Notes under the pieces: model-generated
The model's database searches: none
Seen by the model: the letters and a program-made list of their open reading frames with translations, nothing else
Told to the model about the DNA's origin: nothing
Assembly: GCA_023897205.1 (NCBI GenBank)
Contig: JAHWDD010000006.1
Location: forward strand, 1,860,001 to 1,924,000
Origin: Exophiala sp. HKRS030
Taxonomy: Eukaryota; Ascomycota; Eurotiomycetes; Chaetothyriales; Herpotrichiellaceae
DNA: 64,000 nt
Direction: 5' to 3'
Shown here: in pieces, positions 22,918 through 61,865 of the stretch
Layout of the letters: every line of letters starts with the position of its first letter
Numbering within the stretch: position 1 is the stretch's first letter
Program-made: the position numbers and the translations under genes

Positions 22918-22924
22918 AAAAAAA
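22918..22924 (-). terminator. Pol III terminator of tRNA-Tyr
   Basis: A run of seven T on the minus strand begins two bases beyond the discriminator base of the tRNA-Tyr gene, the standard RNA polymerase III stop. Confidence 0.8.
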
Positions 22925-22925
22925 T

Positions 22926-23085
22926 TCTCCCGAACCGGAATCGAGCCGGTGACCTTTCGATATATTGAAATTTGATGACAAATTTTGCACAATTACAGTC
23001 GAACGTGATAGCCAACCTGCAGAGGTTAGTCGATGTTGTTTATGAGTCAGGAGTTTTTGGTAATAACTCACTACACCATCGGGAG
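22926..23085 (-). tRNA. tRNA-Tyr (GTA) with a canonical intron and a D-loop insertion
   Basis: Acceptor halves CTCCCGA (23085-23079) and TCGGGAG (22933-22927) pair at all seven positions; discriminator A at 22926. The anticodon stem TTCGA/TCGAA (23003-22999, 22960-22956) pairs fully around loop CT-GTA-A. Variable loop is AGGTC. The T-arm ACCGG-CTCGATT-CCGGT pairs fully. A canonical intron of 31 nt (22992-22962) follows position 37, as in eukaryotic tRNA-Tyr. In addition, 55 nt (23071-23017) interrupt the D-loop between positions 14 and 15. Without them the D-arm reads GTGTAGTTGGCTATCAC with A14, G18G19 and A21 in place, and the mature tRNA is 74 nt. The insert starts GTGAGT, contains CTAAC and ends GCAG. 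The gene has a B-box-like GGCTCGATTCC and a T7 terminator. Position 54 is C instead of T. Standard tRNA finders may miss it or misplace its intron. Confidence 0.9.
23017..23071 (-). other. 55-nt spliceosomal-intron-like insertion in tRNA-Tyr D-loop
   Basis: On the minus strand the segment begins GTGAGT at 23071, has CTGAC and then CTAAC, the latter about ten bases before the end, and ends GCAG at 23017. These match the donor, branch and acceptor signals of introns in neighbouring protein genes (for example GTGAGT in the P450 and HBS1 genes, CTAAC in HBS1 and the arrestin gene). Length is at the short end of introns here. Exact removal restores the tRNA fold. That the spliceosome removes it is inference. 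Confidence 0.75.
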
Positions 23086-36981: not shown

Positions 36982-37087
36982 GGAGAGATGGCCGAGTTGG
37001 TTATGGCGTCAGGTTAAGGCCTTCTAAGTCTTAACATACGCATCCTGATGGGATTTTCCCGCGTGGGTTCGAATCCCACTCTCTTCA
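36982..37087 (+). tRNA. tRNA-Leu (AAG) with canonical intron
   Basis: Acceptor GGAGAGA pairs with TCTCTTC (one G-T pair); discriminator A at 37087. The anticodon stem TCAGG (37009-37013) pairs with CCTGA (37044-37048) around TT-AAG-G, so the anticodon is AAG. A 23-nt intron (37020-37042) sits after position 37 and begins CCTT, which can pair with the anticodon as expected for an intron-containing pre-tRNA. The long variable arm (GGGA/TCCC) marks a class II tRNA, and the T-arm is GTGGG-TTCGAAT-CCCAC. The D-arm is uninterrupted, in contrast to tRNA-Tyr in this window. Confidence 0.96.
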
Positions 37088-48167: not shown

Positions 48168-50235
48168 ATGGCGCCCACAATGGCCCATCCGGTCAGCTAT
48201 GGGCAGGTTATTGAATACATCCAAGGTATGAAACAAAGCAATGCCCCCTTCCACAACACAACATCTCACACTTCTGCGCAGATCGCCTCTACCTAGCATC
48301 CTACACACAAGCTCCCAACGAGAACACTCCTTTCCCATATCCTGCTCAAGCCAAGCGATCTCCCCACAAGAAGTCGTCGTCCAGGTCGCAAGCAGGTCCA
48401 ACCAGCGCCACTCTGCGACCTCCACCAGTCTACTTCACGATTGATGATACCCTTCTCTACAATGCTTTTCACGCCGACTTTGGTCCGCTGCACATCGGAC
48501 ACTTGTACAGATTCGCCGTTCAATTCCACGAGATCTTAGGAGATCCGGCAAACAATGACAAGGCCGTGGTGTTTTGGAGTCGAGCAGACGCACGGAGTCG
48601 GGCCAACGCTGCATGTCTGGTCGCGTGCTACATGGTCCTCATACAAGCATGGCCTCCTCATCTTGCTCTTGCACCTATTGCACAGGCGGACCCTCCCTAC
48701 ATGCCCTTCCGAGACGCAGGCTACAGCCAAGCCGATTTTATCCTCAACATTCAGGACGTTGTTTACGGTGTGTGGAAAGCAAAAGAAGAAAATCTGTGCC
48801 AACTTAAGGAGTTCAATCTAGAAGAGTATGTTGTCTTTTCCTGGAGCTTCATAATCTACTGGATCGCTAATGTGTCAACAGATACGAACGATATGAAAGA
48901 GTAGATATGGGAGACTTCAACTGGATCTCACCGCAATTCGTTGCCTTTGCATCACCTCAGTCTGAGCCTACCGCCCCAATACCAACGTCATCCCCAGCCT
49001 ACGCAACGCTGCCAAGTTGCGTACCAGAAATTCCAGACGCCAGAATATCACAACCTTTCAAGAACGTCCTGACTCATTTCGTGCAGCGGGATGTTGGTCT
49101 CGTGGTACGCTTGAACTCGGAGCTCTACTGCCCAACATACTTTACTGCTCTCGGTATTCAACACATTGACATGATTTTTGAAGACGGCACTTGTCCAACG
49201 CTTCCCATCGTTCGCAAGTTCATCAAGCTAGCTCACGACATGATTGTTAAGAACAAATCAATCGCTGTTCATTGCAAAGCTGGCCTTGGAAGAACAGGCT
49301 GCTTAATTGGAGCGTACCTGATCTATCGTCATGGCTTTACTGCCAACGAGGTCATTGCATTCATGCGATTCATGCGACCTGGCATGGTGGTAGGACCACA
49401 GCAGCACTGGCTACACCTCAACCAAGGCAAATTCCGAGAGTGGTATCTGGAGGACCAATGGAAGGTAAAGATGGAAGTTGCGAAGCCTTCTACACCTCGC
49501 ACGATGTCAGCCAAGACACCTATGCGCATCGCCAGTGGTGGAATGCAACAAGCAACGCCTGACCGATCAAGCGCACGACGGTCTGCCCTGGGCGAAATCG
49601 ATGGTAACGATGTCGCAAAGGCGGAACCTTATCAGGATGAGAATCTGCCCGCACCGACACCTGGCCAACCAAGAAAATATGCTCGTATGGACTCGAGGAA
49701 CCATCCCTACGCGCGATCTACCTCGGGCGCCGTCCGCGTCAACGGTGCCAAATCGGAGAGCGATGGTTCTTTCCGGCACAGTGTGAATGGAGCGGACAGC
49801 GAAGAAGAGCTGATTCTGCAGAGAGCCGCATCCCGAAGAAGCCAAAGCAAGAGCCCCATGGGAAGCAAGGGCAAGTCACGAAGTGTCTCATACACAACCA
49901 CCACCACAACGGTGACGAAATCCTTCGACATGGGAGACGAGATGAACATCTATGAGGATGATGGTGATGTCAACTTCCAACTTGAAGACACCAATGCAAT
50001 CTGGGACGAGCTTGCTCAGGAACAAGAAAACCTCAAACTCAGCACCGTGAGTGAGAAGGCTTCCCGACCAAAGACGCCCAGAGCGGCTAGTGGTATGGGT
50101 GCCATGAGCGTCTCAAAGACCCGATCTTTGAGAGAATCTCCTCGTCGAAGTGGCGGTGAGGATAAGACTAAGGTACGCAAGACCAGCGGTCGAGTGGGAA
50201 GTGCGAGTCATGGTCCTGTTGGCGTCAAGCGGTGA
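48168..50235 (+). CDS. CDC14: Cdc14 dual-specificity protein phosphatase
   Basis: Cdc14 removes phosphate from Cdk1 sites at mitotic exit, cytokinesis and septation. Three exons: 48168-48225 (MAPTMAHPVSYGQVIEYIQ), 48282-48825 and 48882-50235, giving 651 residues. Introns have GTATGA...CGCAG and GTATGT...AACAG borders. The N-terminal domain (YFTIDDTLLYNAFHADFGPLHIGHLYRF, YSQADFILNIQDVVYGVWKAK) is followed by DFNWISPQFVAFASP and the catalytic domain with HIDMIFEDGTCP and the P-loop HCKAGLGRTG (catalytic Cys ~332). The C-terminal third is disordered, basic and Ser/Thr-Pro rich, as in other Cdc14 proteins where it holds localisation and regulatory sites, and ends GRVGSASHGPVGVKR. Confidence 0.97.
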
Positions 50236-59925: not shown

Positions 59926-61865
59926 CTAGTTATCAAAGGCAGAAAAAACATCCCTTTTTGCTTCCTCATACTCTCGAAGAATGGTTTCCTTTCTCTTCTC
60001 CGATCGAACCTTGACGTCCAACGCATACGGCTTCGCACAAACTAAGAAGCCTTCACTGTAGCCCGTTCGAGGGTCAACATCCGGCTCGACGATGTTTCCA
60101 TCCTCATCTTTCCCGGGTCCAAACTCGAACGCCCACAAAAGTTTGGCGATGCCGAGGAACAGGTTTCTTTCGGCAAGATGGATTCCAGGACAAAGACGTC
60201 TTCCTGAACCGTACCCGTAATGATCTCTGTCATCGGGGTTGGACGATTGAGCTAGCTCCGACGCCAATGCGGTGATTCCCTTGTAGTGATCCGGATCAAA
60301 GACGTCGGGGTTAGGGAACTTCTTTTCATCGTGGTGCATGCCCCAAGCATTGATAAAGACCACGGATCCCTTAGGGATCTTGTAGCCCTCGATCCAATCA
60401 TCTGAGTTTCGCAGTCAGCCACGTGTGGGTGTGTTCGGGTGGTTCATTGACTTACCTTCGTCTACAGCATGTGGGAAAGCCAAAGGTACCACTACGATTC
60501 ATTAGCAGGGAACATGTTTGCAAACCAAGCAAGTCTGTCGAGAGCGATGATGAACGGTATTGACCAAATAATGACATACCTGGTCGCCATCGCATGGCTT
60601 CTTTCACTGTTGCTGCAATGTAGGGCAAACTCGCATAGTCAGACCAGAGAGGACTTCTGTCCTCACCAATGACGCTGTCGATCTCCTTCTGTGCCTTGCG
60701 CATGACTTCGGGCCACTTGACAAACGCCTGAATGGCAGCGAGTATTATACTCGAAGACGTGTCGCTTGCCCCTTCCATCATGGTGCCCCCAAGGAAGTAC
60801 AACTGATGTCTGGTCAGGTCGAGCTTATCTTTCTGGTCCAGCACCCTGTCCATGAAACTGTACTTGGGTCCTACGGTTTCCCGTCTCTTCTCCAGGCCAG
60901 TGAGCATATCGTTGTATAAATCGTTCATCGCTTTCCCGACGTGACTGGCTCTGGTCCGCCAGTTGCCAAAGACAGCTTCTGGAACGTAATGTAACGCGGG
61001 GAAGATGTCGACCGGTGGCGTATTGCCGGGCTCCATCACGACAGACCAGTCCTCCATCAAGTTATACAAGCGCAGCATATGCTCAGTGTTGACGGTCGGG
61101 CTGCGTACACCCCAGATCGTTCCGCACGCAATGCTATTTGTGAATCGCTTTGGGTGCCACATGTGCTGGTCAGGCTGGATGAGGAAGTCATGCAACAGTT
61201 GGCTGGCTTCAGCTTGTTGCAGAGGAAGATGGTCTTTCATCACGATGCTCTCCATGAAGTGTTGGTGAATGACTTTGCGGTACCGTTGCCATACTTTGCC
61301 ATAGTGTGCGATCAGAACGTGGTCGCCACCTGTGATGAGGTTATGCGAGACGTAGCTGTGAGGGCGGTTACTGTAGATGCCGGACTTCTTGTCGATGAGT
61401 TGTTTCACAAGTCGACGGTCAGTGAGTACGACGGCCGTTGCAGGTCCGAGTTTAAGGGAGAAGATTCCGCCGTAAGTCTGGCAATTGAGTCAATTCCATC
61501 GCGGCAACATAATATCAGAGAGGAGTACCTTTGCCCATTCTGTGAACCTATTGCAATAAACTGTGAGTCCTCTCTTCACATGGTACGGATAGCGGGTGTA
61601 GAAACAGTCTTGACTCACTTGAGATATGATCCTTTGGTGGGTATTTGATGGGCGTTACCTATGATGGCTGTGGTAGGAGGGCCTGCGATGATAAATGTCA
61701 GTCAGTATACCTGGCATGGCTTTTACAGGCTTTCCAGCGGGATGGAAGACAGGACAGCTTACCAGGAGGAAGACCTTTCTCTCGTCGTCCCACAAAGGCG
61801 TATGCATAGAACAAGAAGGCGCACAGCAAGGCGCCTGCGATGGGTAGAACAGTCGTTAGGGCCAT
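59926..61865 (-). CDS. Cytochrome P450 monooxygenase
   Basis: Six exons join in frame: 61865-61763, 61682-61619, 61547-61529 (19 nt), 61477-60580, 60491-60456 (36 nt) and 60401-59926, giving 531 residues. The N-terminus is a membrane anchor, MALTTVLPIAGALLCAFLFYAYAFVGRR, followed by LPPGPP. The I-helix region reads GGTMMEGASDTSSS, the K-helix ExxR is EAMRWRP (~356-361), and the PERF-like region follows. The haem loop YGYGSGRRLCPGIHLAERN holds the ligand Cys at ~444. The layout resembles the CYP family containing O-methylsterigmatocystin oxidoreductase, common in ascomycetes. No polyketide, peptide synthetase or terpene gene lies next to it, so a secondary-metabolite cluster is not supported. 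Substrate unknown. Confidence 0.94.

Follow-up and report, generated by a model that had tools for sequence, protein, structure and literature searches.

How could a tRNA gene give a functional product when its D loop is interrupted by 55 nucleotides (nt) that have the look of an intron of a protein-coding gene? The question is raised by a tRNA-Tyr(GTA) gene in the window, by which we mean the whole stretch of 64,000 nt of Exophiala sp. HKRS030 DNA that was analyzed (G000:C6:1860001-1924000), and it was followed through the assembly to which the window belongs (59.8 Mb in 50 contigs). The explanation that we favor, with a probability of about three in four, is that the 55-nt insert is removed by the spliceosome, as predicted also for inserts in two tRNA-Arg(TCT) genes and in one U6 snRNA gene.

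Anatomy of the window tRNA-Tyr(GTA) gene and its second genomic copy

The window tRNA-Tyr gene is divided by two inserts of different kinds (Table 1). The 55-nt insert lies between tRNA positions 14 and 15 and so is not at 37/38, the canonical position of tRNA introns, which is held by the separate 31-nt intron. It opens with the donor sequence GTGAGT, contains a CTAAC whose putative branch A is 9 nt from the 3' end, and closes with the acceptor sequence GCAG. On rereading of the sequence, the coordinates and letters given in the preliminary description were correct, as were the three signals named there, including a CTAAC about ten bases before the end. A14, G18G19, and A21 are regained once the insert is left out, also as claimed. 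The assertion that all stems are perfect needs slight qualification: the D stem is made up of three pairs and one mismatch, T13.T22, which it has in common with the intact tRNA-Tyr copy L033; the other stems pair.

When the 55-nt insert was left out, the ARAGORN call was tRNA-Tyr(gta), with a product of 74 nt and an intron of 31 nt. This is the mature size proposed earlier, a figure that implies the 31-nt canonical intron even though that intron had been left unstated. With the insert retained, no tRNA was called by ARAGORN at this locus, and Rfam gave no tRNA there, either at the gathering score or at E 0.1. The sole Rfam tRNA in the window at the gathering score is a tRNA-Leu(AAG) with a 23-nt canonical intron. 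After removal of both introns, the window tRNA-Tyr gene has the features expected of a functional gene, namely, the cloverleaf, the GTA anticodon, the C1-G72 pair, and the downstream run of seven T residues. A run of at least five T residues occurs within 40 nt downstream of 41 of the 43 tRNA genes that were parsed in the assembly.

Table 1. Coordinates of the features discussed (plain numbers are window positions; G000 entries are assembly positions)
Feature	Position	Strand	Basis
tRNA-Tyr(GTA) gene, whole; three exons of 14, 24, and 36 nt	23085-22926	-	
tRNA-Tyr exon 1, positions 1-14; includes C1, which pairs with G72, and the 5' part of box A	23072..23085	-	sequence, ARAGORN, cloverleaf parse
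tRNA-Tyr D-loop insert, 55 nt, spliceosomal type (predicted), between positions 14 and 15	23017..23071	-	sequence, motif test
tRNA-Tyr exon 2, G15 to A37, anticodon GTA	22993..23016	-	ARAGORN, cloverleaf parse
tRNA-Tyr canonical 37/38 intron, 31 nt, no GT...AG	22962..22992	-	ARAGORN, parse
tRNA-Tyr exon 3: T arm (box B), acceptor 3' strand, A73	22926..22961	-	ARAGORN, parse
Run of seven T, Pol III terminator-like, one A after exon 3	22918..22924	-	sequence
tRNA-Leu(AAG) gene	36982-37087	+	Rfam
CDC14-like phosphatase gene, yardstick, two introns	48168..50232	+	homology; GT...AG ends set by eye, both introns 56 nt
Cytochrome P450 gene, yardstick, five introns	59929..61865	-	homology; ends by eye as GT...AG, 51-88 nt
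L033, intact tRNA-Tyr(GTA), C1-G72, 14-nt canonical intron	G000:C3:7548618-7548704		cloverleaf parse; ARAGORN label is Asn
L005, tRNA-Arg(TCT), variable-loop insert, no canonical intron	G000:C3:3291191-3291316		
L040, tRNA-Arg(TCT), variable-loop insert and 8-nt canonical intron	G000:C3:1653175-1653312		
L113, U6, 154 nt, with 53-nt insert	G000:C5:2143871-2144024	-	Rfam, over cut-off
L112, U6, 99 nt, without insert	G000:C5:5283494-5283592	-	Rfam, over cut-off

The genes for tRNA-Tyr, a list of which had been proposed as a check, number two as found in this genome, the window gene and L033. Patterns made from the acceptor stem of the window gene, as well as BLAST, gave no other tRNA-Tyr gene, and the resulting idea that the window gene is the sole one is refuted by L033, which has a different acceptor stem. 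A search of the assembly with the Tyr anticodon arm, up to two mismatches being allowed, gave 16 matches, and the backwards control pattern likewise gave 16. Exactly two matches were without mismatch, and these are the window gene and L033; the remaining 14 had no surrounding tRNA, as judged by eye. The mature product of the window gene differs from that of L033, acceptor stem included. Compared with the D loop of the window gene after splicing, that of L033 has one base fewer, and L033 is therefore a close match to a Tyr empty site rather than a letter-for-letter one.

Inserts in tRNA-Arg(TCT) and U6 genes of the same assembly

An Rfam tRNA search of the whole assembly, in which 63 of the 1707 first-look candidates were scored, listed 42 genes. 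Together with the window tRNA-Tyr gene, these form the set of 43 that was cut into cloverleaves. Canonical 37/38 introns of 7 to 53 nt are present in a high share of the set (36/43). An insert outside the anticodon loop is found in three genes, that is, the window tRNA-Tyr gene and the tRNA-Arg(TCT) genes L005 and L040, and both kinds of intron occur together in the Tyr gene and in L040. A further T-arm pattern had four matches. One was previously known, and another (L111) was recognized as a tRNA gene by neither ARAGORN nor Rfam; it was solely through this pattern that a tRNA-Glu(TTC) gene and a tRNA-Ala(CGC) gene surfaced, neither of which has any insert besides a canonical intron.

The two Arg(TCT) inserts are 54 and 58 nt long and follow the scheme GTAAG...CTAAY...AG. 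With them, the variable regions measure 59 and 63 nt, compared with 4 to 5 nt in all other parsed class I genes; without them, the variable loop reads AGGTT and is identical to that of both tRNA-Arg(CCT) genes. The inserts have diverged from each other in length and in letters, and what they have in common is GTAAG, ACTAAY, and AG. Between their host genes, 6 of 21 pairs differ. These differences are confined to the acceptor stem and break no pair, and the unpaired mature positions are identical. Both genes scored above the gathering cut-off in cmscan even with the insert retained.

No insert-free Arg(TCT) gene was found in the assembly by the Rfam listing or by patterns for the Arg T arm and anticodon arm. 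The T-arm pattern (TTGTGGGTTCGAGTCCCA, one mismatch allowed) had six matches: the two Arg(TCT) genes with their inserts, the two Arg(CCT) genes, and two disputed genes (L004 and L020) that are Arg(CCG) by cloverleaf parse and Gly by ARAGORN. The anticodon-arm pattern (GTAGCGCGCCAGACTTCTA, three mismatches allowed) had 8 matches, and its backwards control had 11. The two Arg(TCT) genes, each with its insert, matched exactly; the remaining six matches had three mismatches apiece, and neither ARAGORN nor Rfam (E 0.1) called a tRNA at any of them. The listing of tRNA genes is incomplete, and it could have passed over an insert-free Arg(TCT) gene that has diverged. Searches for Arg(TCT) or Tyr sequences in a viral contig collection and for Arg(TCT) in a genome contig collection gave 0 matches. 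AGA makes up 69 of the 4,989 codons in seven window open reading frames (ORFs), and under standard wobble rules this codon is read solely by the UCU anticodon, so that the fungus should depend on its Arg(TCT) genes and, with them, on removal of the inserts.

U6 snRNA is normally transcribed by RNA polymerase III (Pol III). The Rfam U6 search of the assembly (47 of 3456 candidates scored) gave two matches, and the same search was over the cut-off in none of 14 control genomes, all of which are prokaryotic. One of the two genes, L113, has a 53-nt insert (GTTCGT...AACTAACTTCCAACAG) with the arrangement GT...CTAAC...AG; the other, L112, has none. Without its insert, L113 reads GAGAAG-ATTAGCATGG, which is the local sequence of L112, and runs of T are present at the ends of both genes. 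The donor GTTCGT is a poor fit to the usual consensus and fails the GTRAG part of the motif used for the tRNA inserts. The insert in L113 and its lack in L112 suggest that a gene normally transcribed by Pol III here bears a spliceosomal-type intron and that it is accompanied by an empty-site copy. Introns in U6 genes are known in fungi, as described in the part of a publication available to us (PMC5832005).

Intron signals of the inserts compared with protein-gene introns

Seven introns of two protein-coding genes in the window served as a yardstick. They were placed by homology to Exophiala proteins, and GT...AG ends fitting the protein were chosen by eye. The best named protein relatives of the window come from Exophiala, in agreement with a black yeast close to that genus: the cytochrome P450 is 93% identical to its Exophiala relative over 88% of the query, and a ubiquitin protease is 90% identical to one of E. 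spinifera. The seven introns are 51 to 88 nt long, and their donors are GTAAGC, GTGAGT, GTACTC, GTATGT, GTAAGT, GTATGA, and GTATGT. CTRAY or CTCAC lies 10 to 19 nt before the end in six of the seven; CTRAY itself is present in four and absent near the 3' end in three, two of which have CTCAC. The tRNA inserts, with the donors GTGAGT, GTAAGC, and GTAAGA and lengths of 54 to 58 nt, are in keeping with this protein-intron set, which is a small sample (n = 7), and the range becomes 53 to 58 nt when the U6 insert is included. The likeness in signals to introns of neighboring protein genes that was pointed out in the preliminary description holds, the GTGAGT donor included, and the lengths are alike as well.

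All three tRNA inserts contain GTRAG...CTAAY...AG, with CTAAC, CTAAC, and CTAAT as the candidate branch sequences and the branch A 9, 12, and 13 nt from the 3' end. The motif by which chance was estimated was set after the inserts had been seen, and it consists of a GTRAG start, CTAAY with its A 6 to 25 nt from the end, and an AG end. Of 383,660 pieces of the window (54, 55, or 58 nt, both strands), 2 had the motif, the Tyr insert itself necessarily being one; shuffling the letters of the three tRNA inserts produced it 3 times in 900,000 (1, 2, and 0 per 300,000 for the individual inserts). As an inner control, none of the 36 canonical introns was GT...AG at its called ends, and two became so when the ends were allowed to slide as many as three bases. 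The borders of the four inserts have short repeats, which permit three, two, two, and three equivalent cuts with the same product, and GT...AG is among the equivalent cuts in all four (Tyr, both Arg(TCT) genes, and U6). The cut points can thus be shifted by one or two bases, and GT-AG is compatible with the sequence rather than dictated by it.

Predicted removal of the inserts and alternative explanations

The presence of a spliceosomal intron in a tRNA gene, as put forward in the preliminary description, is supported at the level of sequence, and the case for it is strengthened by the Arg(TCT) inserts, by the U6 insert with its empty copy, and by the seven similar protein-gene introns. In the pathway that we propose, Pol III would make the tRNA precursors from boxes A and B. 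The insert of the Arg genes is situated between the two boxes, and that of the Tyr gene splits box A, the first bases of the intron (GTGAG) carrying box A on as TGGTGTAGTGAG. The textbook form of box A is TRGYNNARNNGG, from which the Tyr version is one base off. No clear shared element was found in the upstream regions. U1 and U2 would recognize the donor and the branch, and the intron would leave as a lariat in the nucleus, while the tRNA splicing endonuclease and ligase would take out the 37/38 intron of those precursors that have one; any sequence of the spliceosomal and endonuclease steps is a guess. We also lean toward the view that the spliceosome is an obligatory tRNA-processing enzyme in this fungus, on which every Arg(UCU) tRNA and all AGA decoding would depend, with the Tyr gene needing both machineries. 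If so, tRNA supply would be coupled to splicing capacity.

It could be argued that the window tRNA-Tyr gene is a pseudogene with captured DNA and that L033 supplies all of the tRNA-Tyr, an explanation that we regard as unlikely. Since an intact tRNA-Tyr gene does exist elsewhere, the window gene might be a pseudogene, and it is not by itself shown to be necessary; moreover, D- and T-arm insertions in eukaryotes are, in the accessible portion of a review, mostly ascribed to one of many synonymous genes and to supposed pseudogenes (PMC4090602). The preliminary description had taken intact tRNA-Tyr genes elsewhere as one mark of a pseudogene, and on that point L033 agrees with it. Decay of the stems, however, is absent: between the window gene and L033, 7 of 21 stem pairs differ, six of them through changes on both sides, and not one of the seven is broken. 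The kept pairing speaks against decay of either gene, although it does not date the insert. The terminator and the canonical intron are present, the insert is a complete intron-like unit, and a pseudogene in the window would leave unexplained the two Arg(TCT) genes, of which no insert-free copy was found.

We consider it rather improbable that the inserts are noncanonical introns cut by the tRNA splicing endonuclease, their GT-AG look being coincidental. Introns in the D arm and T arm are known in Cyanidioschyzon merolae and the Guillardia theta nucleomorph, according to sections of three publications (PMC4090602, PMC3978253, PMC9602550), and substrates of the endonuclease are plentiful here, given 36 canonical introns in 43 parsed genes. 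Yet the endonuclease mechanism requires no GTRAG, CTAAY, or AG, all of which are found in each of the three tRNA inserts, and GT...AG is seen in none of the 36 canonical introns. An insert of the same kind in a U6 gene also argues against it. In the predicted fold of the Tyr precursor, the insert borders lie outside a bulge-helix-bulge, which is weak evidence, as single-sequence folds miss even the mature Tyr cloverleaf. That the inserts are retained, in tRNAs with a long D or variable loop, or that they are chance matches is hardly credible. Some tRNAs do have long variable arms, and both Arg(TCT) genes pass the cmscan cut-off with the insert in place, but a retained 55-nt insert at 14/15 would separate A14 from G15 and G18G19, the Arg variable regions measure 59 and 63 nt against 4 to 5 nt in the other parsed class I genes, and the counts in window pieces and shuffles leave little room for chance.

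Removal by the spliceosome would place these inserts beside the introns of fungal U6 snRNA and U3 snoRNA, with which they share the short GT...branch...AG form in a gene for a small structured RNA; the host here, in contrast, is a nuclear tRNA, already served by a protein-only splicing route. According to the part of the source seen, no small structured RNAs other than U3 and U6 were known at the time to contain an intron frequently (PMC5832005). Canonical eukaryotic tRNA introns are represented in the same Tyr gene, but the inserts occupy 14/15 or the variable loop and carry GT-AG and branch motifs, whereas the canonical introns of this assembly are not GT...AG at their called ends. As in C. 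merolae and G. theta, a D-arm insert stands beside an anticodon-loop intron. The portions available of the publications on these organisms report that endonuclease removal of the ectopic introns is proposed in the red alga C. merolae, where bulge-helix-bulge motifs are held to matter and D- and T-arm introns are inferred to be removed ahead of the anticodon intron, and that the ectopic tRNA introns of the G. theta nucleomorph are 3 to 24 nt long and their enzyme is unknown (PMC4090602, PMC3978253, PMC9602550). Against such bulge-helix-bulge introns and lengths, as far as those portions describe them, the tRNA inserts here are 54 to 58 nt and have spliceosomal motifs.

Both the intron class and a Pol III precedent, that of U6, are thus known, and what appears to be new is the host gene class, nuclear tRNA. 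Among the literature matches listed, there was no report of a spliceosomal intron in a nuclear tRNA gene, subscription journals mostly and preprints wholly being outside the scope of the search. The splicing of nuclear tRNA and that of mRNA are taught as two distinct systems. Spliceosomal introns in tRNA genes, if real, would join the two, would make AGA decoding dependent on the spliceosome, and would suggest that U6 is not the only Pol III gene in which such introns can become established.

Inserts of this kind could also explain tRNA genes that are absent from annotations, as the search for noncanonical introns in tRNAscan-SE 2.0 is described, in the part of the paper available, for archaeal tRNAs and with bulge-helix-bulge models (PMC8450103). 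No gene for tRNA-Lys, -Pro, -Asp, -Trp, or -Phe was among the 42 listed in the present assembly or among the later finds. This is probably a limit of the first-look listing, and these genes might also bear unusual introns. For several of the genes that were found, the ARAGORN label and the cloverleaf parse disagree, with His labeled as Tyr, Tyr as Asn, and Leu as Glu; L009, for example, was a candidate tRNA-Tyr by ARAGORN and is a tRNA-His(GTG) by the parse. The two tRNA-Arg(CCT) genes, L035 and L043 (both in G000:C1), have mature parts that differ only at position 1 and canonical introns of 18 and 45 nt.
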